A stretch of DNA of 64,000 bases from Bradyrhizobium canariense (GTDB taxonomy: Bacteria; Pseudomonadota; Alphaproteobacteria; Rhizobiales; Xanthobacteraceae), in contig NZ_LT629750.1 of assembly GCF_900105125.1 (NCBI RefSeq), positions 6,103,001-6,167,000 of the forward strand. Direction: 5' to 3'. The position numbers were made by a program, and so were the translations under genes. The notes beneath the pieces are model-generated. The model worked only from the letters and a program-made list of their open reading frames with translations, was not told the origin of the DNA and ran no database searches. Each line of letters starts with the position of its first letter. The stretch's first letter is position 1. Positions 45,881 through 63,389 of this stretch are shown here, piece by piece.

Positions 45881-46408
45881 ATGACATCACCGCCGATTCG
45901 CCATCCCGTCCGTATCCTTGGCATCGATCCGGGCCTGCGCCGCACCGGCTGGGGCGTGATCGAGATCGACGGCAACCGGCTGACCTTTGTCGGCTGCGGC
46001 TCGGTGGAACCACAGGACGACCTGCCGCTGGCGAGCCGCCTGCTGGCGATCCATGAGGGGCTCGCCACTGTGCTCGGCGACTTCCAGCCGGCCGAAGCTG
46101 CGGTCGAACAGACTTTCGTCAACAAGGACGGCGTTGCCACGCTGAAGCTCGGACAGGCGCGAGGCGTTGCGATGCTGGCGCCGGCGATATTCGGGATATC
46201 GGTCGCGGAATACGCCCCGAACCAGGTGAAGAAGACCGTGGTCGGCGTCGGCCACGCCGACAAGAATCAGATTCTGATGATGTTGAAGATTCTGCTGCCG
46301 AAGGCCGAGCCGAAATCCGCCGACGCTGCCGACGCCTTGGCCATCGCCATCACGCACGCGCATCACCGCGCCAGCGCGGCGCTCAGGATGAAGGTCATGA
46401 GCCTATGA
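45881..46408 (+). CDS. ruvC: crossover junction endodeoxyribonuclease RuvC
   Basis: 175 residues. The acidic active-site residues lie in '[17 protein letters not shown]' (Asp), '[12 protein letters not shown]' (Glu), and '[17 protein letters not shown]' (two Asp). RuvC resolves Holliday junctions with RuvAB. Its stop overlaps the ruvA start (ATGA), and the three genes are one operon. Confidence 0.96.
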
Positions 46409-47022
46409 TCGGCAAGCTCAAAGGCCTGATCGACAGCTATGGGGAGGATTACGTGATCGTCGACGTCGGGGGCGTCGGCTATCAGGTGCACTGTTCGGCG
46501 CGGACATTGCAAACGCTGCCGTCGCCCGGCGAGGCCGCGGTGCTGTCGATCGAGACCTATGTGCGCGAGGACCAGATCAAACTGTTCGGCTTTCGCAGCG
46601 ACATCGAGCGCGAATGGTTTCGCTTGCTGCAGACCGTGCAGGGCGTCGGCGCGAAAGTGGCGCTTGCCGTGCTCTCAACCCTGCCACCGGCGGAGCTAGC
46701 GAACGCGATCGCGCTGCGCGACAAGGCCGCGGTGACGCGCACGCCGGGCGTCGGCCCGAAAGTCGCCGAGCGTATCGTCACCGAACTGAAGGACAAGGCG
46801 CCGGCCTTCGCCAATGTCGACCCGGCGTTGGTGCATCTTTCCGGCGCGATCGACGATCAACGCGCGCCGCGTCCGGTCACCGATGCAATTTCGGCGCTGG
46901 TCAATCTCGGCTACGGCCAGCCGCAGGCGGCCGCCGCCATTGCGTCCGCCTCGCGAAGCGCCGGCGAGAATGCGGAGACCGCGCAACTGATCCGGCTCGG
47001 CCTGAAGGAGCTGGCGAAGTGA
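46405..47022 (+). CDS. ruvA: Holliday junction DNA helicase subunit RuvA
   Basis: 205 residues. The OB-fold part '[31 protein letters not shown]', two helix-hairpin-helix motifs ('[18 protein letters not shown]', '[19 protein letters not shown]') and the C-terminal RuvB-binding domain ('[20 protein letters not shown]') are all present. It binds four-way junctions and loads RuvB. It overlaps ruvC by four bases and ruvB by four. Confidence 0.96.
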
Positions 47023-48068
47023 GCACGCCCTCCCGCATTGTCGCCCCCGAGCGCCGCGCCGACGATGTCGGCGACACCGCGCTGCGTCCGCAATTGCTGT
47101 CGGAATTTGTCGGACAGCAGCAGGCGCGCGCCAATCTCTCGGTCTTCATCGAGGCGGCGCGCAAGCGAGGTGAGGCGCTGGACCATGTGCTGTTCGTCGG
47201 TCCTCCCGGGCTCGGCAAGACCACGCTGGCGCAAATCGTCGCGCGTGAACTTGGCGCCGGTTTCCGCGCCACGTCCGGTCCCGTGATCGCCAAGGCGGGC
47301 GATCTCGCAGCACTTCTCACCAATCTCGAGGAACGCGACGTGCTGTTCATCGACGAAATCCACCGCCTCAGTCCCGCGGTCGAGGAAGTGCTCTATCCCG
47401 CGATGGAGGATTTTCAGCTTGATTTGATCATCGGCGAAGGCCCGGCGGCGCGTTCGGTCAAGATCGAGTTAGCAAAGTTTACGCTGGTCGGGGCCACCAC
47501 GCGCGCCGGTCTCCTGACCAATCCGCTGCGCGACCGTTTCGGAATTCCGGTGCGGCTGAATTTCTACACCGAAGAAGAGCTGGAGAGGATCGTCACCCGC
47601 GGCGCGCGCGTACTCAACATTGGCATGACGCCTGACGGCGCCAACGAAATTGCGCGCCGCGCCCGCGGTACGCCGCGCATCGCCGGACGGTTGTTGCGGC
47701 GGGTGCGGGATTTCGCCTCGGCCGCGGACGCGGTCTCGATCGATCGCAAGATCGCCGACAACGCGCTCCGCGCGCTGGAGGTCGATGCCGCCGGCCTCGA
47801 TGCGATGGACCGGCGTTATCTCACCACCATCGCGATCAATTACGGCGGCGGTCCGGTGGGCGTGGAGACCATGGCGGCGGCGCTGTCCGAACCGCGCGAT
47901 GCGATCGAGGACATCATCGAGCCGTATCTCATCCAGTGCGGCTATCTGCAGCGCACGCCGCGCGGTCGGCTTCTGACCTCGCATGCCTTCCGCCATCTCG
48001 GCCTTGCTGAACCCGCCCGCGATCCGGCGCAGTTCGGATTGTTTGGCAGCGCGGAGGACGAGCAGTGA
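47019..48068 (+). CDS. ruvB: Holliday junction branch migration DNA helicase RuvB
   Basis: 349 residues of the AAA+ ATPase that drives branch migration. Walker A '[13 protein letters not shown]', Walker B '[11 protein letters not shown]', sensor '[18 protein letters not shown]', and C-terminal winged helix '[19 protein letters not shown]'. The start is GTG at 47019, overlapping the ruvA stop (GTGA). The stop overlaps the following ybgC start, as in intact tol-pal loci. Confidence 0.96.
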
Positions 48069-48340
48069 CCGATATCGGTCTGCCGATGACGGCGCATCTC
48101 GACGGCGCGATCCGCGACGGTCGCCATCACATGCAGGTCCGCGTCTATTACGAGGACACCGATTTAGGCGGCCTCTTATCGCATCTGGCCTGGCAATCGC
48201 GCGCACCGCTTCGACGCGATAGAGCGGACTGCCACCCCTGGGGAGGCGGTAATATCCAGCGCAGCCATGTCGTTCATCACCCTTGGCAGCAAGACTTCTG
48301 GGCGGGCGAGAGAGCTACTCAAGCGATGTTCTATCGATAG
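48065..48340 (+). pseudogene. ybgC: truncated tol-pal thioesterase YbgC (5' fragment fused to foreign sequence)
   Basis: Starts with GTG overlapping the ruvB stop (or ATG 48086) and reads 'MTAHLDGAIRDGRHHMQVRVYYEDTD', the N terminus of hot-dog thioesterase YbgC including the catalytic Asp region. After about codon 34 (near position 48166) the expected continuation (an 'FSGIVYHANYLRF'-like segment) is absent. The frame continues 57 unrelated codons ('LGGLLSHLAWQSRAP...QAMFYR') to a stop at 48340. In relatives ybgC is followed by tolQRAB-pal; here a large accessory segment follows. The break therefore marks the left end of an inserted or rearranged region. Confidence 0.8.
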
Positions 48341-48396
48341 ATAGAGGTTGACAGAGATGGACAAGAGTCGTATCAAACCATCGATCTATCGATAGA
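48331..48396 (+). promoter_or_regulatory. promoter flanked by two TCTATCGATAGA operators
   Basis: Operator copies TCTATCGATAGA at 48331-48342 and 48385-48396 are perfect 12-bp palindromes. Between them lie TTGACA (48349-48354) and TATCAA (48371-48376) with a 16-base spacer. The promoter would drive the PEP-mutase-family gene and be blocked by TetR-type repressors. Confidence 0.65.
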
Positions 48397-48546
48397 TATA
48401 TTACGCAGCGGCGCGTGGCAGTTGATCGTGGCCCGTCGCTCAGTGCTGCGCGGCGGGTCACGGTCGCCGGCGTACGCAAGCAAGACTTCGAGTCCAAGTC
48501 TGTCTGCGATTTCACCATCGTGCAATCTATTGAACGGAGGATGACA

Positions 48547-49293
48547 GTGAGCCAGATCAAGAAAGCTAAACAATTTGCGGCCCTTCACGTCAAAGGGACG
48601 CCAGTGATACTTTATAACGCGTGGGATGCAGGCAGTGCGAAAACGATCGTCGAGACCGGTGCGGAGGCGATCGCGACGAGCAGTTGGTCTGTCGCCACTG
48701 CGCAGGGGTATGAGGACGGCGAGGACCTTCCGCTTCCGCTTGCCGAGCAGATCGTCGAGCGGATCGTGGCGGCAGTTGACGTGCCCGTGACCGTCGACTT
48801 CGAAGGCGGCTACAGCGACGATGATCGCAAACTAGCCTCGAACATCTCCAAGCTGCTTGATCTGGGAATCATCGGGATCAATTTCGAGGACCGCGTGGTT
48901 AAGGGGAAAGGGCTCTACGACGTTGATCGGCAGGCGAAGCGAATTGCGGCGATCCGACATGCTGCCGAACACAAGGGCGTTCCTCTCTTTATCAATGCGC
49001 GGACCGATGTGTTCTTAGGTAACAGCGGCGATGTCGACGAAGCCCTGGAGAGAGCGAAGGCATACGCGTCGGCCGGCGCGTCCGGCTTCTTCATTCCCGG
49101 GCTGACCGAGGCCGACCATATCCGTCGGATTGCTGAGGAAGCGAAGCTGCCGGTCAACGTCATGGTCATGGAAGGCGTCCCATCGAATGACAAGCTCGCG
49201 AAACTAGGTGTCGCCCGCGTGAGCTATGGGCCGATTCCGTACATCGAGGCGATGGAGGCTCTCCAGAAGAAGGCAAGCAAGCTCTTTTCGTAA
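48547..49293 (+). CDS. isocitrate lyase/phosphoenolpyruvate mutase family enzyme
   Basis: 248 residues, TIM barrel of the ICL/PEPM superfamily: 'LYNAWDAGSAKTIVETGAEAIATSSWSVA', metal-site 'VPVTVDFEGGYSD', 'GINFEDRVV', 'LFINARTDVFL' and 'AGASGFFIPGLT'. Members cleave or isomerise C-C or C-P bonds in 2-methylcitrate, oxaloacetate or phosphonate chemistry. No Cys of classical isocitrate lyase (KKCGH) is visible, so a lyase/hydrolase of the oxaloacetase or carboxyvinyl type is as likely. GGAGG at 48536-48540 touches the ATG at 48541, so the in-frame GTG at 48547 is the better start. Confidence 0.87.
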   Translation: MSQIKKAKQFAALHVKGTPVILYNAWDAGSAKTIVETGAEAIATSSWSVATAQGYEDGEDLPLPLAEQIVERIVAAVDVPVTVDFEGGYSDDDRKLASNISKLLDLGIIGINFEDRVVKGKGLYDVDRQAKRIAAIRHAAEHKGVPLFINARTDVFLGNSGDVDEALERAKAYASAGASGFFIPGLTEADHIRRIAEEAKLPVNVMVMEGVPSNDKLAKLGVARVSYGPIPYIEAMEALQKKASKLFS

Positions 49294-49567
49294 TCTGCAT
49301 GCGACCTCTGGAGGTCGGCCAAACCCGCGACGCCCTTGCAAGGATTGTGAGTAAATTTGCGCCGCGAAGATAGGCCAACTTCCGCAGCGCCGTTTGCCCA
49401 GATATCCTCATCTTCGTCTCGCGTTGCCGCGGTCTCGGCCCCTCGACCAGCCTTCGCCTGGACCAAAGGGGCGCGTCCCAGCGGACTGGGAAAATCACAT
49501 CAATCAATGAGCCGGTCTATGACGACGGCAACACGCCACGAGCGTAAAATCCAGAAGGAAGAATCCT

Positions 49568-50074
49568 GTGTATCATCAAGTCGTTTCGCAGTGCGTCCAG
49601 TCCTTGAAAACTGTAGAGGTCTTGCTCGACAAGGCCGAGCAATTTGCCGCTGCCAAGCAGTTTGACGTCCGTGTGCTGTTGAACGGCCGTCTCGCGCCCG
49701 ACATGAAGCCCTTGATCTACCAGGTGCAGAGCGCTTGCGACTATGTCAAAGCCGCCGCCGCGTGGCTTTCCGGGCAGACGCCTCCAAAGCACGAAGACAA
49801 TGAGCAAACCCTCAAAGAGCTGCGCGCTCGCGTTCGGAAAACTGTCGATTTCGCCGAAAGCGTAGGCAAGACACAATACGAAGGCGCAGAAGGCCGCAAA
49901 GTCAGCCTTTCGTGGGTTCCCGGGAAGGTCATCGGTGGCGAGGATTATCTGCTTCAGATAACGATTCCGAACGTCTACTTCCACATTGCGATGACGTACG
50001 CGGTTCTCCGCAACGGCGGCGTTGACGTCGGCAAGATGGACTTCCTTGGGCCAATGAATTTTGTCGAAGCCTGA
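49568..50074 (+). CDS. DUF1993 family protein
   Basis: 168 residues matching DUF1993 (DinB-like four-helix fold): 'QCVQSLKTVEVLLDKAEQFAAAKQFD', 'LNGRLAPDMKPLIYQVQSACDYVKAAAAWL', 'YLLQITIPNVYFHIAMTYAVLRNGGVDVGKMDFLG'. Function is unknown. GTG at 49568, preceded by AAGGA, is the start. It lies between the PEP-mutase gene and alkB in the accessory region and has no TCTATCGATAGA site of its own. Confidence 0.87.
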   Translation: MYHQVVSQCVQSLKTVEVLLDKAEQFAAAKQFDVRVLLNGRLAPDMKPLIYQVQSACDYVKAAAAWLSGQTPPKHEDNEQTLKELRARVRKTVDFAESVGKTQYEGAEGRKVSLSWVPGKVIGGEDYLLQITIPNVYFHIAMTYAVLRNGGVDVGKMDFLGPMNFVEA

Positions 50075-50192
50075 CGAGACAGGCATTCCTTTCTTGCCCG
50101 GACCCTCTCGGCGCCGATCGGTGGCGCGGTCGCCCTGCGGCAAGCCGTCCGCTCACCACAAGTCGAGCCTCCAAGAAGAATCTCCAGATTCG

Positions 50193-50825
50193 ATGCCCGT
50201 GAAACGCGCTTTAGCAAAGAAATACACCAGCAGCCCCGTCAGTGGCATGGGCGACCTGTTCGGGGATCCCGAGCTGCCTGCCGGTTTCCGCTATATCCCG
50301 TATGTAATATCGACCGCCGACGAAAAGAGCCTCGTTCAGCGATTTAAAAAGCTGCCCCTGAAGCCCTTTGAATTTCACGGACATCAGGGCAATCGCCGCA
50401 TATACACCTTCGGGCACAGATATGTCTTCGCAGGCCAGGAGCCGCGCGCCGATGCGAGCATTCCCGATTACCTTCTGCCGCTCACCGACGTTGCAAGCCA
50501 GATCAGTGGCGTGCCGGCCGAGGCGTTTGAGCAGTTCATGGTGACGGAGTATGCGCCGGGTGCTGGAATCGGCTGGCACCGCGACCGACCGTCGTATGAA
50601 GATATCGTCGCAGTGTCGTTTCTCGCGCCTTGCACATTGCGGCTGCGTCGGAGGGCGGGGGAGGGCTGGGAGCGCCGGTCCGCGCATGTCCAACCACGAT
50701 CAGTGTATTTGCTCCATGGCCCGGTGCGGAACAGCTGGCAGCACAGCATCGCGCCGATGGACGTTCTGCGCTACTCCGTGACCTTGCGTACGTTTCGCCC
50801 TGGCCGAAACTCCTCGAGCGATTAG
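50193..50825 (+). CDS. AlkB-family alpha-ketoglutarate-dependent dioxygenase
   Basis: 210 residues. Fe(II) ligands are HxD in 'GIGWHRDRPSYED' and a distal His in 'SWQHSIAPM', with 2-oxoglutarate-binding Arg residues in 'RYSVTLRTFRP'. AlkB-type enzymes remove alkyl lesions from DNA/RNA by oxidative demethylation. Presence in a cluster for electrophile handling suggests repair of alkylation damage by the same compound, which is inference. The ATG at 50193 follows a weak AAGAAG. Confidence 0.87.
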   Translation: MPVKRALAKKYTSSPVSGMGDLFGDPELPAGFRYIPYVISTADEKSLVQRFKKLPLKPFEFHGHQGNRRIYTFGHRYVFAGQEPRADASIPDYLLPLTDVASQISGVPAEAFEQFMVTEYAPGAGIGWHRDRPSYEDIVAVSFLAPCTLRLRRRAGEGWERRSAHVQPRSVYLLHGPVRNSWQHSIAPMDVLRYSVTLRTFRPGRNSSSD

Positions 50826-50952
50826 CGTTCCACCATTGCGGTTGTCAGATCGGCGAATAGATGGGCGAAGTGATTAGATAAAACGTCCGCGGCGATGGTG
50901 AGGTCGCTTCAGCCCGAAGCCGGGATCATGACAGCACGCTTTCGCGCGATCA

Positions 50953-51489
50953 TCAGGCGACTGCGAATGTGGACCCGGTAAGCCCCGCAGTCGCCTGATC
51001 GAACGCAGAGATATCGTGATAGGCACGCGTAAGAATCAGGCCTCCTTCCAACGCCGCCATCACATGGAAAGCCCGACCCACAGCATTCGCTCCGCCAATT
51101 CTGCTCGAAAGGTCGTCGATGCAGCGTCGAAAGAACATCTCGATTTCCTGCACGATCTCGGGCGGTAGACCGCCCGCTTGAGCTCCAAGCATGCCGCCTA
51201 GACACATCCGGCCATCCCGTTCGATCGCGCTGCGAAACGCGGATCGATAGATCGCAATCACCTGGTCGCCGCTCTCATCATGCCGCCGCGCGACCAGTTC
51301 GAAGAAGCGATCCCCGTATCGGCGCGCGACCGCAGCGGCCATTCCCGCCTTGGTCGGAAAATGGTGGTGGACACTGGCGCTCTTGATGCCGATCTCGGCT
51401 GCGAGATCGCGGAAGCTGAAGCCCCGGTAGCCCGCCTCGCGGATGCGAGCCTCGGCCAGGTCCATCAGGCGCTCTGCCGTTTCGTTCAT
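50953..51489 (-). CDS. TetR/AcrR family transcriptional regulator (first copy)
   Basis: 178 residues. The N-terminal helix-turn-helix 'GYRGFSFRDLAAEIGIKSASVHHHFPTKAGMAAAV' (about 20-54) is typical TetR, followed by a C-terminal ligand domain with 'CLGGMLGAQAGGLPPEIVQEIEMFF'. It is about 40% similar by eye to the second regulator at 59146, including 'FSFR.IA...GVKS.SVH.HFPTK'. It is divergent from the hydrolase operon; operator-like palindromes sit in the 95-base gap, consistent with autoregulation. Confidence 0.9.
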   Translation of the reverse strand: MNETAERLMDLAEARIREAGYRGFSFRDLAAEIGIKSASVHHHFPTKAGMAAAVARRYGDRFFELVARRHDESGDQVIAIYRSAFRSAIERDGRMCLGGMLGAQAGGLPPEIVQEIEMFFRRCIDDLSSRIGGANAVGRAFHVMAALEGGLILTRAYHDISAFDQATAGLTGSTFAVA

Positions 51490-51502
51490 TGCATTTCCTA
51501 TC

Positions 51503-51568
51503 TCTACTGATAGATAGACGTTGACGGCAGGGATTTCCAGAGTTATCCCTTTCTCTACCTATCGATAG
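51503..51568 (+). promoter_or_regulatory. divergent promoter region with two TCTATCGATAGA-like operators
   Basis: TCTACTGATAGA (51503-51514) and CTATCGATAG (51559-51568) flank a TTGACG (51521-51526) and a TTATCC (51543-51548) with a 16-base spacer. Expression of the hydrolase/oxidoreductase operon (plus) and of the TetR gene (minus) would both be affected. Confidence 0.6.
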
Positions 51569-51584
51569 AGCGGAGAAGGAGCTC

Positions 51585-52445
51585 ATGAGCAACGAACAGG
51601 ATACGCCGGCCGTTCGCCACGTCGACACGCCGTCAGGCCGAATCGGTTACGTGGAAGTGGGATCGGGACCGGTCGCTCTCTTCGTGCACGGCGTGCTGCT
51701 GAACAAGCACATGTGGCGCTACCAGCTCGGCGCGCTTTCAGATTTTCGGCGGTGCATCGCGGTCGACCTGCTTGCGCACGGCGACACGGAAATCGCAGCC
51801 GCTCAGAACGTATCTGTGACCGCCAACGCGAATATGCTGAAAGAAGTGCTCGACGCGCTGCATATAGATCAGGTCGATCTGGTCGGAAACGACAGCGGCG
51901 GAGGGATTTGCCAGATCTTCGCCGCGCTCAATCCGGATCGGGTGCGGATGCTGACGCTCACCAACTGCGATACCCATGACAACTGGCCGCCTGAAGCATT
52001 CAAACCGTTCGTGGAAATGGTTTCTGCCGGCGGGCTGAGCAAAACCCTCAACGCAATGCTCGGCGACAAATCGATCTATCGCTCGCCAGGGGCGCTTGGC
52101 CCGGCCTACGAGCATCCCGAAGCCGTCACGGACGAAGATATCGAAATCTACCTGCGGCCACACCTGCGCAACGAGCAGCGTACCCACGATCTGGAGCGTT
52201 TCGTCGGCGCATTCGACAATAAGCACACTTTGGCCATCGAGCCCCGATTGCGGCAGCTCAAGGCTCCGACGCTGATCGTCTGGGCCACGGACGATGTCTA
52301 CTTTCCGGTGAAATGGGCGCACTGGCTGGCCGAAGCGATCCCAGGAGCGAGACCGCCCGTCGAACTGCCCGGAGCGCGGCTTTTCTTTCCCGAGGAGCGG
52401 GCGGACGCATTCAATCGGCTGCTGCGCGGCCATTGGGTCGGCTGA
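51585..52445 (+). CDS. alpha/beta-fold hydrolase with Asp nucleophile (dehalogenase/epoxide-hydrolase-like)
   Basis: 286 residues. The oxyanion 'FVHGVLLN' (His35-Gly36) and the nucleophile elbow 'VGNDSGGG' (Asp103, not Ser) fit the haloalkane dehalogenase/epoxide-hydrolase branch. The second acidic residue is likely in 'LIVWATDDVYFP'. At the place of the usual catalytic His the sequence is 'PGARLFFPEERAD', with no His, so it may be a non-standard hydrolase. A GGAGAAGGAG ribosome site precedes the ATG. The next gene starts 63 bases downstream in the same operon. Confidence 0.85.
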   Translation: MSNEQDTPAVRHVDTPSGRIGYVEVGSGPVALFVHGVLLNKHMWRYQLGALSDFRRCIAVDLLAHGDTEIAAAQNVSVTANANMLKEVLDALHIDQVDLVGNDSGGGICQIFAALNPDRVRMLTLTNCDTHDNWPPEAFKPFVEMVSAGGLSKTLNAMLGDKSIYRSPGALGPAYEHPEAVTDEDIEIYLRPHLRNEQRTHDLERFVGAFDNKHTLAIEPRLRQLKAPTLIVWATDDVYFPVKWAHWLAEAIPGARPPVELPGARLFFPEERADAFNRLLRGHWVG

Positions 52446-52507
52446 CCAATCCGACCCGTACGATTCGGCGTCGCACGAGCCGAATCCCCATCAGCGAGGC
52501 ACTTGGT

Positions 52508-54142
52508 ATGCTGCTGGAAGACCGACTGGCCCAAATCGTTCCGACGCTGACTCCAGCTCAGATACAGTTCGCTCTTCGTTTCGCGAGCGGTCCTGAGCGG
52601 CGTTTTGCACCGGACGAAAAGCTTCTCGATGTCGGCGATCGGGACATGGCCGTGTGGCTGGTCGTCGAGGGGGGCATCGTTGCGAGCCGACGGGATGGTC
52701 TGGGCCGGGAGGGGATATTTGCCACCGGCGGACCGGGTCAGTTCAGCGGAGAAGTAAGTGACCTTGCCGGGCATGCCTCCTTGGCCATGGTCTGCGCGGG
52801 ACCGAACGGGTGCACGGCCTATCCGTTCGATCTCCCTCATCTTCGAGCTCTGCTCATCAGCAGCGCGGACATCGGCGAACTGATGATGCGGGCCTTCATC
52901 CTGCGGCGCGCCGCGCTGTTGGAGGGGGACAGCGTTGGCTCGGTCATCCTTGGAGAAGCGGGATCGCCGGCGACGGTTCGCCTTCGGGGCCTGCTTACCC
53001 GGAACAGCTACCCGCACTCGCTGATCGATGCAGGTGGTACTGAAGGTAAAGCCCTTGTCGAGCGCCTCGGCGTGCAGGCGGCCGATTTGCCGATCCTGAT
53101 CTGCCCGAACGGGACGGTGCTGCGGCGGCCCAGCGATACTGAGGCGGGAGTAGGGCTGGGAATCGTTCCCGATATCAAGCCTGGAACGACGTACGACGTG
53201 ATCGTCGTTGGCGCGGGCCCGGCAGGCCTCGCTGTTGCCGTGTATGCGGCATCGGAGGGGCTCTCCGTTCTGGTTGTCGATAGCCGCTCGTTCGGTGGCC
53301 AAGCGGGCGCATCCTCGAGGATCGAGAACTATCTGGGATTTCCGACCGGCATCTCCGGCCAGGCGCTTACGGCGCGCGCATTTCTTCAAGCTCAGAAATT
53401 CGGTGCTCAATTTGCGGTGCCGGTCTCGGTCGTCGAACTCGATTGCTCGCAGCCACCGTTGCACCGCGTGGCACTCGACAATGGCGTTTCAATTTGTGGA
53501 CGGACGGTCGTGATCGCGTCGGGCGCGCGTTACCGGCGGCCAGAGATCGAAAACCTCGACCGCTTCGAGGCAACCAGCGTCTCGTACTGGGCGACGACGA
53601 TCGAGGCGGCCCTGTGCGAGGGCCGCGATATCGTTCTCGTCGGAGGAGGCAATTCTGCGGGGCAGGCGGCTGTCTTCCTCGCCGCGCACGCGCGCCAGGT
53701 ACACCTGGCTGTCCGCTCGTCGGGCCTCGATGCCTCCATGTCCCGCTACCTGATCGACAGGATCAAGGCGACGCCCAACATCGACTTGCGGGTCCGCACC
53801 GCCGTCACCGGATTGTCGGGTACGGCAGATGGTACACTGGAAAGCATCGACATGACCTGCCGTGAGAGCGGCGACAGTCGCCGGGTCGACGCACGGCACA
53901 TGTTCTTGTTCATCGGTGCCGATCCCAACACCCAGTGGCTCGATCGGCGTATCACCCTGGACAACAAGGGCTTCGTTGCCACCGGTAGCGATCCGCAATT
54001 GCCGTTGGCAACCAGCAGCCCCGGTGTTTTTGCGATCGGAGACGTGCGGCGCGGATCGGTGAAGCGCGTGGCGGCCGGCGTCGGCGAGGGTGCCGCGGCC
54101 GTAGCTCAGATCCACGCCTACCTCGCCACCCTTCATTCGTAG
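52508..54142 (+). CDS. cyclic-nucleotide-domain / thioredoxin-reductase-like FAD oxidoreductase fusion
   Basis: 544 residues. Residues 10-130 form a cNMP-binding-like domain ('DVGDRDMAVWLVVEGGIVAS'), 145-205 a thioredoxin/glutaredoxin-like segment without a CxxC ('HSLIDAGGTEGKALVERLGV'), and 228-540 a pyridine-nucleotide disulfide reductase fold with GAGPAG (235-240), 'GGQAGASSRIENYLGFPTGISG', 'GGGNSAGQAAVFLA' and the terminal 'FAIGDVRRGSVKRVAAGVGEGAAA'. The redox-active CATC of thioredoxin reductase reads WATT. It therefore cannot reduce disulfides in the standard way and may reduce another substrate with NADPH. Confidence 0.87.
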   Translation: MLLEDRLAQIVPTLTPAQIQFALRFASGPERRFAPDEKLLDVGDRDMAVWLVVEGGIVASRRDGLGREGIFATGGPGQFSGEVSDLAGHASLAMVCAGPNGCTAYPFDLPHLRALLISSADIGELMMRAFILRRAALLEGDSVGSVILGEAGSPATVRLRGLLTRNSYPHSLIDAGGTEGKALVERLGVQAADLPILICPNGTVLRRPSDTEAGVGLGIVPDIKPGTTYDVIVVGAGPAGLAVAVYAASEGLSVLVVDSRSFGGQAGASSRIENYLGFPTGISGQALTARAFLQAQKFGAQFAVPVSVVELDCSQPPLHRVALDNGVSICGRTVVIASGARYRRPEIENLDRFEATSVSYWATTIEAALCEGRDIVLVGGGNSAGQAAVFLAAHARQVHLAVRSSGLDASMSRYLIDRIKATPNIDLRVRTAVTGLSGTADGTLESIDMTCRESGDSRRVDARHMFLFIGADPNTQWLDRRITLDNKGFVATGSDPQLPLATSSPGVFAIGDVRRGSVKRVAAGVGEGAAAVAQIHAYLATLHS

Positions 54143-54329
54143 TCCATGGTGACTTAAGCGGATGGAGCGTCGGCGGCTTGTCGCAGGCAGGTGAGGCAGT
54201 CGAACTGCCTTTGGTCGGCGTACCCGGACCTCCTGCTCGACTTGCACATCGACCCCGCCACCTATGACGACGCTGTCACGAAGCGCGGCGCCCGCAGGTC
54301 GGTGGCAAACATAAGCTGCGTGTCCCGCT

Positions 54330-55940
54330 CTAGGATGAGCGCGTTCCAGCCGCCCGGATGAGCCGCCAACTCGCCAGGCTTGCAAAAACTGCGACGACCG
54401 CAGCAACGGAGAGTGCAGCACCGAAGCCGGCTGCTACGCTGGCGTGCACCGCGCCTTGGAGGGCGATTCGAATCGGATCTGATAAAGCAGACAAAGCACC
54501 GCTCGCGTCGCCGCCCACGATCCGAAGGCTCAGGTCGTGCCAATCGATCCTCTGATCGAGCACGAGCGACCTTCCAAGCCTTCGAAGGTTGGCCTCGGCC
54601 ACGCCCGCGAGCACTGCGCCCAGCCCCGCGACACCGGCGACGATGCCAATGAACCGCGTCGTACTTGCCAATCCGGAGGCCATTCCGGCGCGCTCTGGCG
54701 GAACGGAGCTGACTTGAGCTTTCGCCGTCTCGCTGTTGAGCAGGCCCGCGCCGGATCCCGTGATGAACATGCCGATCGCAGCCGTCCAATATGCGAGGTC
54801 CGACAGCACGGCTGCTGCCGCGATCGCATTGCCAAGCGCGACCAATCCGAGACCGAAGCTCAGGATCGCACGGCTGGACATGCGCGTCGCGAGCCTGCCG
54901 CCCACGCTGGGACCGATCAGCAGCGGCAATGCGAAAGGTATCATTGCGAGACCTGCGATCGCCGGCGAAAGCACAAACGCATCCTGGAGATAGAGCGGAA
55001 GGATCGTCATCATGACTTGTGCTGCGGTCGCGTAACCCAGCATAGCGACGGCTGCTCCGGTGACGGTCGGATCGCGGAATATCGACAGGTCGATCATCGG
55101 GCGTGGGTGTTTGCGTTCGGCAAAAACGAACGCCACAAGCAGGACCGTGCCCACTGCTAATCTGATGATTGTCGGCGCACTCTCCCAGCCGATGCTATTT
55201 GCATCGATCAGAGCCCACACGACGCTGAAAAGACCGGCGCCAAAGAGGATGATTCCTGGATAGTCCAAGCCTGACGCTTTCGGGTCGCGAGATTCCGCGA
55301 CCGATGTCAGGGCGAGGACGATCAATCCGGCGCCCAACGGCAAATTGATGTAAAACGCCCATCGCCATCCCAAATAGGACGTAACGAGGCCGCCGAGGAT
55401 CGGACCGAGAGGCGGTGCCATACCCATTACGGTGCCCCAGATCGCGTAGACGCGGTCTCGTTCGTGAGGTTCGAATCCGTGTGCGACAACGGCCAGCGAC
55501 GAAGTCAGCTGGAGCGCGGCGCCGACCGCCTGCAATGCGCGCGCGCCGTTTAGCGTAGCGAGATTAGGTGCCGCACCGCAGAGAAAAGAGGCGAATGTGA
55601 AGATCGACAGCCCGATAAGCAGCATGCGCCGCCGCCCAAGACGGTCGGCCAAGGCGCCTGCTGGCATCAGCAGTGCCGCGAACGGAAGGATATAGGCGCT
55701 GACAACCCATTCGACATCGGTGAATCCGCCGTGCAGGTCGCGCGCAATGGATGGCAGCGAGACCGCGACAATGTTGGTGTCGAGCATGATGAGAAAGGGC
55801 GCGCCGGCACAACAAAGCAACATGCGCAGCTTCCGGCCAGAGAACCGAGCCGTCGGAGACGGTGGCATAGCATCAGTCTGCAGCTGTCCCGCTGCAATAC
55901 CGAGGCTATTTTCGCCATTCCTGAGCACGAAACCATCCAT
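54330..55940 (-). CDS. MFS transporter, DHA2 (EmrB/QacA) family
   Basis: 536 residues with about 14 hydrophobic segments, motif A 'GALADRLGRRRMLLIG' and motif C 'GPILGGLVTSYLGWRWAFYINLPLG', as in proton-driven multidrug exporters of the DHA2 group. An alternative start is ATG 55868 (MPPSPTARF). It is third in the minus-strand series SDR-OYE-MFS and probably exports the compound or product handled by the cluster. The 187 bases downstream to the oxidoreductase stop hold no gene. Confidence 0.9.
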   Translation of the reverse strand: MDGFVLRNGENSLGIAAGQLQTDAMPPSPTARFSGRKLRMLLCCAGAPFLIMLDTNIVAVSLPSIARDLHGGFTDVEWVVSAYILPFAALLMPAGALADRLGRRRMLLIGLSIFTFASFLCGAAPNLATLNGARALQAVGAALQLTSSLAVVAHGFEPHERDRVYAIWGTVMGMAPPLGPILGGLVTSYLGWRWAFYINLPLGAGLIVLALTSVAESRDPKASGLDYPGIILFGAGLFSVVWALIDANSIGWESAPTIIRLAVGTVLLVAFVFAERKHPRPMIDLSIFRDPTVTGAAVAMLGYATAAQVMMTILPLYLQDAFVLSPAIAGLAMIPFALPLLIGPSVGGRLATRMSSRAILSFGLGLVALGNAIAAAAVLSDLAYWTAAIGMFITGSGAGLLNSETAKAQVSSVPPERAGMASGLASTTRFIGIVAGVAGLGAVLAGVAEANLRRLGRSLVLDQRIDWHDLSLRIVGGDASGALSALSDPIRIALQGAVHASVAAGFGAALSVAAVVAVFASLASWRLIRAAGTRSS

Positions 55941-56040
55941 TCCGCTGTTCCGCGACCTGCGCGATGAGCTTGGCTATGTAGATCAGCGACAAGAGGTCCT
56001 GCCGACGCGCAGACGATCGGCAGGGCTTTCGAAGGCTCAA

Positions 56041-57186
56041 TCAGGAAGTGGGAAGCAGAGCCTGTAAGGACGTTTCGTAGGTGGGATAGTCGGTGTAGCC
56101 GCGCGCGGTGTAGCCATAGAAGGTGCTGCGGTCATATGGGTTCAGCCGCAAGCCGAGTTCGATCCTCCTGGGCAAGTCGGGATTCGCGATGAAGTGACGG
56201 CCGAAGGCGATTAGGCTCGCATCGCCATTGACCACGCTTGCCTCGGCCGTCTCCGGATTGAATCCACCGGCTGCGATGACTGGTCCCTTGAAGATCTTGC
56301 TCAATTCTTGGGCTGCGACCGGCGCCTGCGCTTCGGCAATGGTCTCACCGCCCTTCACCCGCGGTTCGATGAGGTGAAGATACGCGAGCCCGAAGCCGTC
56401 GAGCCGCTCTGCCACCGAGCGGAACAGCGCACGGGGATTGCTGTCGCCCATGCCATTGAACGTCCCGCTTGGCGCGAGCCGAACCCCGACCCGATCCGCG
56501 CCCCAGACTTCGCTCAACGTCTGGACGACTTCGACCAGAAGACGCATTCGATTCTCGACCGTACCGCCGTATTGGTCGCTCCGCTTGTTGGTGTTGTTCT
56601 GCAGAAACTGATCTATCAGGTGGCCGTTGGCCGCCATCAGCTCGACACCATCGAAACCCGCTTTCTTGGCGTTGCGCGCGGCGGCGCGATATTGATCGAG
56701 GATGCTGGCGATTTCCGCCGTCTCCAGCGCGCGATGCGGCGACGTCTGGCGAAACCCATCAGGCGTATCGACGACGATGCTCGGATCAGCCCAGTAGGTC
56801 GGATCGACGGACGCCGTGACCGGTTGCGATCCCGTGATCGAGACATGTGTCGTGCGGCCGGCATGCCAAAGCTGGGTGAAGAAGTATGCGCCCTTGGCGT
56901 GAACTGCATCCGTGATGCGTTTCCAGCCTGCCACGTGCTCGTCGGCGTAGAGACCGGGCGCGTGATAGTAGCCTCGCGCGGACGCCGCGATCGCTGTCGC
57001 TTCCGTGATCATCAGCCCGCCGTCAGACGCACGCTGCGTATAATAATCGAGCTGCAAGTCGCTCGGAATGCCCGTCCCTGGCTGCGCCCGTAGCCGGCTT
57101 ATCGGCGGCATGACGACACGGTGTTTCAGTGTGATCGGCCCGATTTGCACGGGCGTGAAGAGCTTCTTTTGAACGTTTATACCCAC
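56041..57186 (-). CDS. old yellow enzyme-family alkene reductase
   Basis: 381 residues, FMN-dependent TIM barrel: 'LFTPVQIGPITLKHRVVMPPISRLRA', 'QLWHAGRTTH', the His/Asn substrate-binding region 'GVELMAANGHLIDQFLQNNTNKRSDQYGG', 'ENRMRLLVEVVQTL' and 'ALIAFGRHFIANPDLPRRIELGL'. It reduces activated C=C bonds (enals, enones, nitroesters) with NADPH, as in NemA. It lies 128 bases downstream of the SDR gene and upstream of the MFS gene in the same direction. It fits a role in removing electrophiles. Confidence 0.93.
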   Translation of the reverse strand: MGINVQKKLFTPVQIGPITLKHRVVMPPISRLRAQPGTGIPSDLQLDYYTQRASDGGLMITEATAIAASARGYYHAPGLYADEHVAGWKRITDAVHAKGAYFFTQLWHAGRTTHVSITGSQPVTASVDPTYWADPSIVVDTPDGFRQTSPHRALETAEIASILDQYRAAARNAKKAGFDGVELMAANGHLIDQFLQNNTNKRSDQYGGTVENRMRLLVEVVQTLSEVWGADRVGVRLAPSGTFNGMGDSNPRALFRSVAERLDGFGLAYLHLIEPRVKGGETIAEAQAPVAAQELSKIFKGPVIAAGGFNPETAEASVVNGDASLIAFGRHFIANPDLPRRIELGLRLNPYDRSTFYGYTARGYTDYPTYETSLQALLPTS

Positions 57187-57314
57187 TGGGATTCTCCGTT
57201 CGTGATGAGGCTGCGCTGGAAACGGAAGGGAGGGGCGTGAAGAGGAAGGCGGTCCCGCGCGGGTCGAGCGCGGGACGGATCACTAAGGTCGGATGTTGCC
57301 CCGACCGCAGGCGA

Positions 57315-58088
57315 TCACTGCCTGCCAGCCATGATGCCGCCGTCGACCGGAAGGATGACCCCGGTGATGAAGCTCGCCTGATCCGAGGCAAGGAACAGGA
57401 GCGCTTCGGCCGCGTCTGCGGGCTGACCGTTGCGGCCAAGAGGGTGCATCGCATTGAAGGTCGGCAAAACGGTCTTCACCTGCTCCGGCGTCAGGAATGT
57501 GCTGAAGACCGGGGTCTCGATCACGCCGGGCGCGATCGCATTCACGCGGATCTTGTCGGGCGCCAGCTCGATCGCGAGGTTCTTGACCAGCGCATGGACG
57601 CCACCATTGGCCGCTGAATAGGCCGATGACGGCGTGGCGCCGATCGCCTGCAGGCCCCACATGGAGCCAGTTTGCACGATCGCGCCGCCGCGGCCCGCAG
57701 CCTTCATGGTCTTGGCGGCCGCCTGTGCGATGAAAAACTTGCCCTTGAGGATGATGTTCAGGAAACGATCGTATTCATCTTCGGTGACGTCGAGGAATGG
57801 CTTCGGCCCGAAGATGCCGGCGTTGTTGAACAGGACGTCTAGGCGGCCAAAGCGATCAAGCGCTGCCTTCACCGCTGCTTGTCCGGTCGCCGGCAGGGAA
57901 ATGTCGCCCACATGGGCGATAGCACGCTTTCCGGTCGCGTCGATTTGCTTGGCTGCGGCTTCAGCTTTGGCGGCATCGCGTCCGATGATGACGACAGATC
58001 CACCTTCAGCGACAAATCGGGTCGCCACTTCCTTGCCGATGCCCGAACTGCCTCCTGTAACGATCGCGACCTTGTCCTGAAAACGCAT
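57315..58088 (-). CDS. SDR family oxidoreductase
   Basis: 257 residues with 'TGGSSGIGKEVATRFV', NNAG, catalytic Ser in 'VQTGSMWG', YxxxN-like 'YSAANGGVHALVKNLA' (the usual YxxxK lysine is Asn here: Y-S-A-A-N), and 'GVILPVDGGIMAG'. The Lys-to-Asn change in the catalytic tetrad is unusual. The start is ATG 58088 with GGGAGAG upstream. It is the first gene after the 58.1-kb double-operator promoter. Confidence 0.9.
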   Translation of the reverse strand: MRFQDKVAIVTGGSSGIGKEVATRFVAEGGSVVIIGRDAAKAEAAAKQIDATGKRAIAHVGDISLPATGQAAVKAALDRFGRLDVLFNNAGIFGPKPFLDVTEDEYDRFLNIILKGKFFIAQAAAKTMKAAGRGGAIVQTGSMWGLQAIGATPSSAYSAANGGVHALVKNLAIELAPDKIRVNAIAPGVIETPVFSTFLTPEQVKTVLPTFNAMHPLGRNGQPADAAEALLFLASDQASFITGVILPVDGGIMAGRQ

Positions 58089-58111
58089 GGCAACTCTCCC
58101 GGTTATTCTAC

Positions 58112-58184
58112 CTATCGATAGATTGATGAGCTTCCGAGAATTAACTCTGGAAACTGGATGCGTCAAGCCTGATCTATCGATAGA
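58112..58184 (-). promoter_or_regulatory. promoter of the SDR-OYE-MFS series with two TCTATCGATAGA operators
   Basis: Operator cores at 58112-58121 (CTATCGATAG) and 58173-58184 (TCTATCGATAGA). On the minus strand TTGACG (58166-58161) and TTAATT (58144-58139) with 16 bases between them lie inside the pair. Confidence 0.65.
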
Positions 58185-58240
58185 GAGGAACAACGTCGTG
58201 ACGGGCGGCGGACGGATTGCCGACCTTCCTCCGACGGAAC

Positions 58241-58930
58241 CTATCGGTGCGTCATCAGGCCACGCGGAACGTCAGGATAATATTGTGGGCTTTCACGTCG
58301 ATCGAACATGCCGTAGTCACGCACGATGCGCACGACGCGATGACGAACAGCGTTGGCCTCGGTAGGGAGCTGTGGTTCAAACTGCTCAGCGGAGTTGCGG
58401 TCGCGCCAGCTCGCCAACAATGCAAGCTTTCCCGCATTGTAGATGCTTGAGAAAACGTCGTGGTCGATCAGGGCCGGGTGCCTTCGATCGAGCGACAAGC
58501 GGTCAGCGAGCTCCGACAGAGCCAGCGATCCCGATCTAGTCGGTGCCGGCAAAACCTCGGTAAGCGTTGCAAATTTCCCGGCGCCGACCTCCGTCTCGTC
58601 CAAACGCTGTTCAACCAGAGGCACGCCGTCGGGAGGCGCCGTATCCGCCACGATTTCGCCAACCCGCAAATGATAATCTTGAAAGACGTCGTCGCGGCCG
58701 CGCTGTTGAGTCTCGTGGTGCTTGGCTACGGTGCGCCATCTCACAACGGACTTTTCGTCTCGCCACGTGGAATGCGACAGGATCCACCCCGGCCGGCGCG
58801 CGCTTTCGAAGCGCTCGTTGTCGACGAACCCGTCGATGGCCTGCAGGATCGGCCTCAAGTCTTTCGCAAGAGCGAGGTAAAGGTCGAATTGTTCTTTCTT
58901 GGGATGGACTTCGAAGATCACCGAGAACAT
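58241..58930 (-). CDS. antibiotic biosynthesis monooxygenase-like protein with two ABM-type domains
   Basis: 229 residues. The first half 'MFSVIFEVHPKKEQFDLYLALAKDLRPILQ' with 'RPGWILSHSTWRDEKSVVRWR' is a clear ABM dimeric alpha+beta barrel. The second half repeats the theme ('VFSSIYNAGKLALLASWRDRNSAEQF', 'RHRVVRIVRDYGMFDRRESPQYYPDV'). Small ABM proteins are cofactor-free oxygenases or binding proteins in quinone metabolism. The start is ATG 58930. It is divergent from the second TetR gene across a shared operator region. Confidence 0.85.
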   Translation of the reverse strand: MFSVIFEVHPKKEQFDLYLALAKDLRPILQAIDGFVDNERFESARRPGWILSHSTWRDEKSVVRWRTVAKHHETQQRGRDDVFQDYHLRVGEIVADTAPPDGVPLVEQRLDETEVGAGKFATLTEVLPAPTRSGSLALSELADRLSLDRRHPALIDHDVFSSIYNAGKLALLASWRDRNSAEQFEPQLPTEANAVRHRVVRIVRDYGMFDRRESPQYYPDVPRGLMTHR

Positions 58931-59063
58931 CTTGATTACCCAGCTTGCCTGAGATTCGTGCCGAGGGAGGGGATGTCTTCCGCGATCGACGGGCCGAAGC
59001 CCGGCCAAGGACCCGAAGATTAGGCTTGCGACAGACGTTCGCTATCTTGCATAGCATTGTGCC

Positions 59064-59124
59064 CTATCGATAGATAGACTGACGGGCATTGTTTTTGGTC
59101 TCTTTAAGCCCTACCTATCGAGAG
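59064..59124 (+). promoter_or_regulatory. operator pair upstream of the second TetR gene
   Basis: CTATCGATAG (59064-59073) and CTATCGAGAG within CTACCTATCGAGAGGTAG (59112-59129). A weaker CTGACG (59079-59084) and TCTTTA (59101-59106), 16 bases apart, lie between them. Confidence 0.55.
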
Positions 59125-59145
59125 GTAGCCACGGGAGCAGACCCA

Positions 59146-59697
59146 ATGAGTGACGTCGCCGCCGCCATCATGGACGCCGCCGAGCGGCGAATGCGGAAGG
59201 GCGGATTCAGCGGTTTCAGTTTTCGAGAGATTGCAGTCGACGTGGGCGTCAAGAGTTCTAGTGTCCACTATCATTTCCCGACCAAGGAGAATCTCGCGGC
59301 TGCCGTCATCCAGCGCTATACCGCACAGACGGCGGATTTGATCGAACGGGAGCTCCAGAAGGAGCCAAACCCGGTGAAGGTTTGGGTGAAAGCGTTCCGA
59401 GGGACTCTGCACTCAGAGGATCGCATGTGTCCATGCGCCGTGCTCGGTGCATCAACCATGGATCTGCCGTCGGAAGTGTCAGCGGAAGTAAAGAAGTTCT
59501 TCAAGATGTGTCATGAGAAGCTCGTGCAGGAGGGCCTCTCGTCGGATGAGGCCTCGCAATTGCTGGCAACGATCACGGGCGCGTTGGTGGTGGCCAATGC
59601 GGTGAATGACTTCGCGACATATGATCGTGCTACGCGTGAGTTCACCCGAGCGTGGAAACCTGCGCCGGTGAAAGTTGGTCGCCAGCGTTCGAAGTAA
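59146..59697 (+). CDS. TetR/AcrR family transcriptional regulator (second copy)
   Basis: 183 residues. HTH 'GFSGFSFREIAVDVGVKSSSVHYHFPTKENLAAAV' and C-terminal ligand domain with 'CPCAVLGASTMDLPSEVSAEVKKFF'. It parallels the regulator at 50953, so the two may bind the same TCTATCGATAGA operator. It faces away from the ABM gene. ATG 59146 has GGGAG 8 bases upstream. Confidence 0.9.
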   Translation: MSDVAAAIMDAAERRMRKGGFSGFSFREIAVDVGVKSSSVHYHFPTKENLAAAVIQRYTAQTADLIERELQKEPNPVKVWVKAFRGTLHSEDRMCPCAVLGASTMDLPSEVSAEVKKFFKMCHEKLVQEGLSSDEASQLLATITGALVVANAVNDFATYDRATREFTRAWKPAPVKVGRQRSK

Positions 59698-59836
59698 ACG
59701 TCAAACGCGCGCCGCGTGAATTCCGGCGGCTCGCCAAACCCAGCCTTTTGTAGGCACCGTATCAAAGCTTTGGAGCGCGGTAGCGCGGCTCAAGTAGGGA
59801 TCGAAGCCGCAAGGCCCGAGCCGCGTGGGCGAAGTG

Positions 59837-61144
59837 TCAACCGAATCCATGCCGCGGCGACCACGTGAACCGGTCGGGTGCCGAGGTCCTCGTGAGCCTC
59901 GAAAGCAGCGCCAATCCATCCCGAAAGAGCACGAACGGATACCGTGATCCATCATCGCGCGAAGGGCTGTCAAATCCCGGAACTAGGCCGAACGGCTCGG
60001 TCGCTGGTAGATCAACAACTCTGGGAAACGGGGCCGCCTGGCCGCCTATCATTCCGGAAAGAAGAGAGAGGAATGACTTCGCGGCAACTTCCTCCATCGC
60101 GAACACATTGAAAAAACTACCCTGAAGCCGCCGGAACCAGTGACCGTACTCGCTTGGCGGCAATCGGCCGGCGACGGATTCGAACTCGTCCAGCAGCAGC
60201 CAGGGCCGGACGAAGGGAAACAGACTTTCGGCAGCAACCCAGAACCGCCGGCCGCCAAGTCCGAACGTCAGAAATGTTGTGACGATCTCGTCGTCGGGTC
60301 GATTGCCAGCACCCCGGAGCCAGTCAATCCACGCGACGATCTGCGGAGCGCCCATCAATAAGAAGTTCGACCGATGCGCGGCGAAAACAACGGAGGCAGG
60401 CGCAGACCCCGCACCCGCCTGGGAAACGGCAGGCGGCGGAGCGGGCTTCGACTTTTTCTTTGCTATCTCTGTCTCGGCGATATGTAAGAACGTGTCGGAG
60501 GAAACAGGATTAGAGCCGAAAGCCACGGAGTAGCCGTGCACGACCTTTCCATGCGCGCATAATTGGCCGATGTGCGGTTTCACTTGGCGAAAATACTTTT
60601 GCTTGGCCTCTCGCTTCATGTCGGCGCTCGTCACCGCTAGCGCAAAAGAACCGTGGGCCTCGGCTAGCACCACGCCATGGGCGGCGACGGCGCCGCCAGC
60701 ATAGATGAAGTCGGCGTGCGGATTGGCGCTACCGGGTAATGCGACGCCGTTGTCGCGCCAGACGTATCCGAGAGCATTCATCATAACGTCGGTCACGCCA
60801 GCGCCAACGCGTCCAGCAAAGCCGGACCGGTCCGCATCGCCAAGCGCCATGATGTCCGGCGAGAGCGCGAAGGAAGATCCATCCCGCACGAGATATTCTA
60901 TTTGCAGGAGCTGCGAGCGGGCCCATTGGGCAAGCATCGCATCAGGCGCCCGACGTAGCGTGAGCGTTCGCCCCATCGCTGCTGCAAGCGCCTCTGGCCG
61001 GACGCGGATGGCTGGCGGCATGGCCGGAGCCACAAACCCGTCCGAGACCGGGCTGGGCCGTTGCCCGTGCACCGTATGCCCGGAAACCAGAACGGTCTTT
61101 TCGGTGCGCCATATGGCCGGCGCCGCTACCGTGGCAACTGTCAA
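59837..61144 (-). CDS. unrecognised protein with PD-(D/E)XK-like residue pattern
   Basis: About 435 residues; no family was identified with certainty. A middle segment 'GRVGAGVTDVMMNALGYVWRD...PHADFIYAGG...VVLAEAHGSFALAV' followed by 'KPHIGQLCAHGKVVHGYSVAFGSNP' resembles nuclease-like proteins in which D...ExK binds metal. Here Asp145, Glu162 and His164 would be the residues, with His in place of Lys. The C-terminal third ('LLMGAPQIVAWIDWLRGAG', 'FWVAAESLFPFVRPWLLLDEFESV') is unassigned. The start used is TTG 61144 after GGGGGA; the frame is open to 61243. It is divergent from the GHKL gene. Confidence 0.7.
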   Translation of the reverse strand: MTVATVAAPAIWRTEKTVLVSGHTVHGQRPSPVSDGFVAPAMPPAIRVRPEALAAAMGRTLTLRRAPDAMLAQWARSQLLQIEYLVRDGSSFALSPDIMALGDADRSGFAGRVGAGVTDVMMNALGYVWRDNGVALPGSANPHADFIYAGGAVAAHGVVLAEAHGSFALAVTSADMKREAKQKYFRQVKPHIGQLCAHGKVVHGYSVAFGSNPVSSDTFLHIAETEIAKKKSKPAPPPAVSQAGAGSAPASVVFAAHRSNFLLMGAPQIVAWIDWLRGAGNRPDDEIVTTFLTFGLGGRRFWVAAESLFPFVRPWLLLDEFESVAGRLPPSEYGHWFRRLQGSFFNVFAMEEVAAKSFLSLLSGMIGGQAAPFPRVVDLPATEPFGLVPGFDSPSRDDGSRYPFVLFRDGLALLSRLTRTSAPDRFTWSPRHGFG

Positions 61145-61322
61145 AGTCCCCCCAAGATTCTTCGATGCTAAGGATATCTTAAGTCTGGATTTCCTGCTTA
61201 CGGGCGCCGGCGGGCCTGCATTTGGTTGAGCACAACCGTCCAAATGGACTCGCGGCTTGGGACGCGACTCGCATATTATACCCGCCTATTTTGGGATATT
61301 TACCTTCCATTCTGAGCGTTTT

Positions 61323-63376: not shown

Positions 63377-63389
63377 GGCGAACGGCCCG

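Follow-up and report, generated by a model that had tools for sequence, protein, structure and literature searches.

A putative detoxification regulon with paired operators and two paralogous TetR repressors in Bradyrhizobium canariense

TetR control of detoxification genes is already known, from NemR and CifR among others. NemR of Escherichia coli represses nemA and gloA; its Cys106 answers reactive chlorine, and its Cys21 and Cys116 answer electrophiles, according to an excerpt of PMC7464077. CifR of Pseudomonas aeruginosa is epoxide-responsive, and the cif operon includes morB, an MFS gene and a hydrolase gene (excerpt of PMC8244358); the title of a paper cited in that excerpt gives CifR two binding sites. 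In Rhodobacter sphaeroides, the TetR repressor AcuR answers the unsaturated reactive compound acrylate (PMC3017554, in excerpt), and the flavonoid-responsive Bradyrhizobium TetR FrrA is encoded beside an RND pump (PMC4070704, likewise in excerpt). Here, we describe a block of genes in a 64,000-nucleotide stretch of Bradyrhizobium canariense DNA (assembly GCF_900105125.1, contig NZ_LT629750.1, positions 6,103,001 to 6,167,000; hereafter the window) that encodes two TetR-family proteins, TetR1 and TetR2, and in which four promoters carry paired copies of the palindrome CTATCGATAG.

The block differs from the NemR system in its several paralogous repressors, which appear to share sites. Its regulatory logic and kinds of genes look like those that the available text gives for CifR; kinship to CifR is not close (12% identity over 175 aligned residues, rank 28), the nearest solved structures being the uncharacterised TetRs 3on4 and 2g7s, with NemR fifth. 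AcuR resembles the picture drawn here for TetR1 and TetR2 in being a TetR linked to a reactive compound, but its operator, as given in the excerpt, is a single inverted repeat, TAATAGAC-n6-GTCTATTA, overlapping the promoter, unlike the paired sites of the block. AcuR was rejected as the family of the two proteins because the operator differs, TetR2 reaches 23.2 bits where the AcuR model requires 247, and that model is not listed for TetR1. Common to FrrA, as excerpted, and the block are the genus, a TetR and an RND link, RND genes bearing operator pairs in relatives of the block. What appears to be new is a subfamily-wide paired code, shared by paralogues, locked to the -35 element and accompanied by a change of specificity, although among the operators of NemR, CifR, AcuR and FrrA the one compared was that of AcuR, and the novelty may be lower. 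Neither CTATCGATAG-type strings nor five extended operator strings had a relevant match in Creative Commons-licensed PubMed Central papers, where the matches listed were chance occurrences (primers, eukaryote papers).

Paired operators and promoter architecture

A scan of the window located exact copies of CTATCGATAG at 48331, 48386, 51559, 58112, 58174 and 59064, and near copies at 51504 (two mismatches) and 59115 (one mismatch). These eight copies form four pairs, each flanking a -35 element of TTGAC or CTGAC type, as an earlier note on this DNA, made from the letters alone, had claimed; three of its eight coordinates (48385, 51503 and 58173) were off by one base and are corrected here to 48386, 51504 and 58174. 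The pairs and the two proposed repressors are as follows.

48331..48395, + strand: operator pair 1 (cores 48331-48340 and 48386-48395), around the -35 TTGACA at 48348, in the promoter of the phosphoenolpyruvate (PEP)-mutase-like, DUF1993 and AlkB-like genes
51504..51568, + strand: operator pair 2 (cores 51504-51513, two mismatches, and 51559-51568, exact), with the -35 TTGACG at 51521, between tetR1 and the hydrolase gene
58112..58183, - strand: operator pair 3 (58174-58183 upstream, 58112-58121 downstream), around a -35 TTGACG, in the promoter of the genes for a short-chain dehydrogenase/reductase (SDR), an old yellow enzyme (OYE) and an MFS permease
59064..59124, + strand: operator pair 4 (59064-59073, exact, and 59115-59124, one mismatch), with the -35-like CTGACG at 59081, in the tetR2 promoter, between tetR2 and the ABM gene
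50953..51489, - strand: TetR1, 178 aa, first proposed repressor, taken to act at the CTATCGATAG sites (PF00440, 3.7e-10; helix SFRDLAAEIGIKSASVHHHF; Cys96; AlphaFold2 model with a pLDDT confidence score of 93.3)
59146..59697, + strand: TetR2, 183 aa, second proposed repressor (PF00440, 6.4e-11, scanned as open reading frame (ORF) 59089-59697)

Both proteins belong to the TetR/AcrR superfamily, with a TetR_N DNA-binding domain and an all-helical fold. Loose matches to the palindrome (at most two mismatches) exceed expectation only slightly in the window (24 observed versus 16.6 expected by shuffling, with 3 of 100 shuffles reaching 24), and it is therefore the exact copies, together with their arrangement in pairs, that carry the signal. 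The 7.84-Mb single-contig genome holds CTATCGATAG at 11 exact places, six of which are in the block, compared with four for a reversed-pattern control; the binomial chance of at least six of 11 falling in one given 10.8-kb stretch is 3e-15, uncorrected for the ~1,450 such stretches. When the 18-mer CTATCTATCGATAGATAG was searched at up to three mismatches, all six places found genome-wide were in the block (control, two); sites 51504 and 59064 are more than three mismatches away from this 18-mer. A palindrome common throughout the genome, which the earlier note had named as one outcome that would speak against its reading, is not what these counts describe.

The five copies outside the block (genome positions 1495075, 4036866, 5958256, 5996013 and 6372627) have no exact partner beside them in the 160 bases inspected for each. 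Two of the five (L003 1501 and L004 1501) lie in similar, repeat-like intergenic DNA. Within orthologous loci, the degenerate sites 51504 (L086, L087, L089) and 59115 (L086, L089, L090) are each unchanged in 3/3, and the exact site 59064 has one mismatch in the genome G176 (L087), which weighs against strict conservation.

Promoter architecture was derived from 51 distinct pairs from same-genus and species-wide loci, chosen for having the TTGAC register. TTGAC follows the core after 7 nt in 44 of them, after 8 in six and after 6 in one; at pair 1 the -35 element likewise begins 7 nt past the core. The extended operator over these pairs is CTAYC-TATCGATA-GRTAG, and the feature of the subfamily is a paired CTAYC-N8-GRTAG in which TTGAC follows the upstream 18-mer at a distance of 2-4 nt, a feature found here; in the window, three of the four pairs have TTGAC and one has CTGAC. 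A -10 element rich in T-A-A/T is aligned at 17 nt after the -35 hexamer, and this spacing replaces the 16 bases proposed in the earlier note. At that distance the window has, by eye, TATCAA, TATCCC, TAATTC and CTTTAA. Because these -10 elements are poor, a generic sigma-70 scan returned no promoters in the region. The downstream core begins 30-52 nt after the start of the -35 element in the registered pairs (38, 38, 45 and 34 nt in the window) and would cover the likely transcription start site. In the tet system of Tn10, tandem operators with the same CTATC/GATAG half-sites are found; the spacing of the half-sites differs, and no membership in that system is claimed.

The operator code, the recognition helix and a change of specificity

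A total of 84,980 species, each represented by a single genome, were scanned for two exact copies of CTATCGATAG 34-62 bases apart, a search confined to exact pairs and to contigs of at least 3,000 bases and perhaps lacking the genomes nearest to that of the window. It returned 61 stretches with 71 pairs, of which 42 share their stretch with a TetR1 or TetR2 homologue (E ≤ 1e-12), 32 of these at a distance of at most 300 bp. TTGAC 6-8 nt past the core is present at 40 of the 71 pairs, and it is more frequent where a TetR homologue is in the stretch (32/42) than where there is none (8/29). Across phyla, pairing and a fixed -35 distance go with the TetR subfamily and with its form of recognition helix. 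Exact pairs are present in 8 of 195 same-genus genomes, the window's own included, and the reversed pattern in 0/195. Among the 48 plasmid records with a TetR match, six were inspected, and paired sites were found at five of the six loci, in Sphingobium, Sinorhizobium, Rhizobium, Methylobacterium and Paraburkholderia, with SDR, GST or RND genes annotated as neighbours.

A search with TetR1 gave matches in 56 of 98 same-genus genomes, with 30 loci among the matches listed; genome G000 has two matches at E ≤ 1e-10, both in the block. Sites near the gene, at up to one mismatch, accompany eight of the 30 loci (L092, L093, L094, L096, L098, L100, L107 and L114) and are missing at 22. S25, S37 and H41 occur in the helix-turn-helix of all eight site-bearing loci, and the three together in none of the 22 others; rows with identical first 120 residues were counted once in this comparison, and the helix of L098, which was absent, was taken from its 92%-identical TetR2 orthologues. 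TetR1 and TetR2 both have this recognition-helix signature that accompanies the CTATCGATAG operator.

Most of the site-less loci (16 of 22: L099, L101-L106, L108-L113, L115, L116 and L118) form a group with A37, together with N25 in 15/16 and Y41 in 15/16. Upstream of all 16 are two CTACC-N8-GRTAG operators, followed 3 or 4 nt past the 18-mer by TTGAC in 15 and by TTGAA in one (L118), and tetR stands divergently to a gene whose start, read by eye, resembles the GSTs of other loci. On the tree, which was rooted at its midpoint and carries a long-branch warning, the 16 loci are one clade (100/100), neighbouring the site-bearing L107 (100/97), within a supported clade otherwise carrying CTATCGATAG. 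Four loci were labelled as having no motif on this tree, namely L098, which has sites, and L043, L056 and L075, which have a pair beyond 350 bp upstream; the count of seven motif-label changes is therefore too high. The nested clade looks like a natural change of operator specificity, in which S25N, S37A and mostly H41Y would be matched by a new operator centre while the operator arms and the distance to the promoter were kept.

Similar clusters were examined in seven genomes, picked as interesting rather than as a sample. Exact sites are concentrated in R. sophorae (13/14 within 22 kb), R. multihospitium (18/20 on one contig) and Mesorhizobium sp. YC-39 (8/11 within ~20 kb). In Rhizobium, Mesorhizobium and Bradyrhizobium, pairs precede tetR1, a second TetR1-like gene (tetR1b), tetR2/ABM, and PEP mutase, SDR, OYE, DUF1993, RND pump and isochorismatase genes, the site-bearing isochorismatase gene being followed in rhizobia by a DJ-1/PfpI gene. 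Gene order in these clusters of other rhizobia is shuffled relative to the window, the promoter architecture apparently being kept while regulon genes move between genomes. Within the genus, close copies of the block are present in G024, G030 and G176. In the single case of G097, there are no sites beside an SDR relative (70%) and no close TetR in the genome.

Proposed mechanism and competing explanations

We consider it fairly probable that the block is a detoxification regulon under two paralogous TetR proteins, working as follows. TetR1 and TetR2 would both recognise CTAYC-TATCGATA-GRTAG, with one dimer bound at each promoter just upstream of the -35 element and a second over the start region, and the two bound dimers would exclude RNA polymerase. 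A reactive or xenobiotic compound would be sensed, probably via the effector domain that holds Cys96, and would release the repressors, upon which the enzymes and the DHA2 pump would be made. Binding, repression and autoregulation, as well as cysteine sensing and an electrophilic inducer, are what we infer from comparing genomes. The proposal in the earlier note of one regulon whose two TetRs are linked to the same site gains support from comparative genomics, through the rarity of the sites, the helix signature and the genome G047 described below. It is likely that paralogous repressors with a shared operator code control genes for xenobiotic or electrophile detoxification (OYE, SDR, hydrolase, PEP-mutase-like protein and MFS here; GST, RND and DJ-1 elsewhere).

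Cys96 is invariant in 76/76 TetR rows and stands, in the TetR1 model, immediately before helix 97-103. It aligns with the only cysteine shown in that region of the NemR structure 4yze, at chain position 108, which would be NemR Cys106 if the numbering differs by a constant offset of 2. A sensing role of Cys96 is plausible, and so is an electrophile as the inducer, given the detoxification gene set and the invariant cysteine aligned with NemR Cys106.

Several observations weigh against this reading. At the protein level, the positions of NemR Cys21 and Cys116 are not cysteine in TetR1 or TetR2 by alignment, and TetR1 has Gly at 98, where 57/76 rows have a second Cys. Some site-bearing TetRs depart from the helix signature (L072 has F at 41, L025 lacks S25), and, conversely, the Pseudoalteromonas plasmid locus (H15) has the signature and no site was found at it. 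In the species-wide scan, 29 of the 71 pairs have no TetR homologue in their stretch; 21 of these also lack the TTGAC register, many of them being repeats (in Bacteroidota, Prochloron, Gracilibacillus, archaea and others), and 10 of the 42 pairs with a TetR lack it as well. Among the eight TetR-less pairs that do have the register are some from Rhizobium and Mesorhizobium clusters, where the TetR genes are situated beyond the stretch that was retrieved.

If only one of the two TetRs read the CTATCGATAG pairs, the other having drifted or reading another site, TetR1 and TetR2 might be expected to look as distinct as they do, for they are only 36% identical and stand in separate supported clades of the tree; G047, too, has no close TetR1, yet it keeps the same sites together with a TetR2 orthologue, ABM and a cut SDR. 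The signature residues are nevertheless present in both proteins, conserved pairs stand at both of their own promoters, and separate lineages with a single TetR have the same site, which leaves this explanation unlikely. The two TetRs might instead both read the sites while the genes are independently autoregulated and respond to different ligands rather than in one response. The modular, shuffled composition in other genomes fits such independence, and for a single ligand one of the two repressors would be superfluous; against it, one code at four promoters and helices that are indistinguishable by operator would force cross-talk unless promoter context separates them, and we regard it as distinctly improbable. 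That the palindromes belong to a mobile repeat or serve a different regulator draws on the outside copies in repeat-like DNA and on the tandem repeats among the motif-first matches, but it does not account for the -35 register, the adjacency to TetR genes, the helix signature or the matched operator change in the nested clade, and we hold it to be exceedingly improbable.

Under the preferred reading of a regulon with two repressors, a further step is conceivable, if doubtful: paralogues with a shared operator and different effector pockets may co-occupy the paired sites, such that a promoter opens fully only once every repressor present has been released. Were this true, toxic mixtures would be read by an AND-type sensor, tunable through how many tetR paralogues a mobile element carries and of which kinds, and the ready-made promoter cassette of operator, -35 and operator would bring further detoxification genes under its control. 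Apart from this, a widespread and apparently unnamed TetR subfamily gains an operator code and, in rhizobia and other Proteobacteria, a predicted regulon; the genes of this regulon are candidates by which rhizobia may cope with reactive plant or soil compounds.

Gene content and insertion of the block

The remaining genes of the block, from left to right, are given below.

48547..49293, + strand: PEP mutase/isocitrate lyase superfamily enzyme, 248 aa, GTG start proposed (PF13714, 1.6e-81, scanned as ORF 48415-49293; best solved relative 4mg4, 8.8e-64)
49568..50074, + strand: DUF1993 protein (PF09351, 4.2e-50)
50061..50825, + strand: AlkB-like 2-oxoglutarate/Fe(II) oxygenase ORF, start provisional (PF13532, 1.1e-13)
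51585..52445, + strand: alpha/beta hydrolase (PF00561, 2.1e-21; partial match to esterase 5egn, 1.5e-16), with the nucleophile motif GNDSGG read by eye
52508..54142, + strand: cyclic-nucleotide-binding-like domain fused to a thioredoxin-reductase-like FAD oxidoreductase (PF07992, 3.1e-35; PF00027, 2e-5, and TIGR01292, both below cut-off)
54330..55940, - strand: DHA2-family MFS efflux permease (TIGR00711, 4.5e-76, above cut-off)
56041..57186, - strand: OYE/ene-reductase (PF00724, 3.2e-89; best solved relative 6s32, 2.4e-113)
57315..58088, - strand: SDR (PF13561, 2.8e-59, scanned as ORF 57315-58193)
58241..58930, - strand: ABM-domain (antibiotic biosynthesis monooxygenase) protein (PF03992, 6.2e-11, scanned as ORF 58241-59008)

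Beyond tetR2 on its right side, between 59837 and 63902, lie four ORFs (170-468 aa) that have no Pfam match.

The relative G003 is colinear with the window up to 48165 and resumes at the equivalent of 81479, beyond the window. Judged by this colinearity, the block is the left end of an insertion of ~33 kb that interrupts a thioesterase gene lying downstream of ruvB. The split gene, which we take to be ybgC-like, has its left part in the window.

48065..48165, + strand: cut 5' end of the thioesterase gene, left edge of the insertion (G003 colinearity; remainder at the equivalent of 81479-81847)

The blocks in G024 and G176 start at the same base, beside similar sequence. A tRNA was rejected as the insertion site: 79 conserved bases following ruvB resembled one but belong to the 5' portion of a coding gene, ARAGORN found no tRNAs in the window, and Rfam gave no matches in 46000-64000. 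Thioesterase-like duplicate stretches are present beyond the window at 65854-66256 and 70632-70735, and a phage-type integrase gene lies directly past tetR2 in G030 (L089 12456-13814). A further part of the insertion (L152, equivalent of 67285-78891) encodes an AbiEi/AbiEii pair, a TPR-CHAT protein and a DUF4365-TPR protein, beside which a 207-aa ORF has a weak Piwi match below the cut-off.

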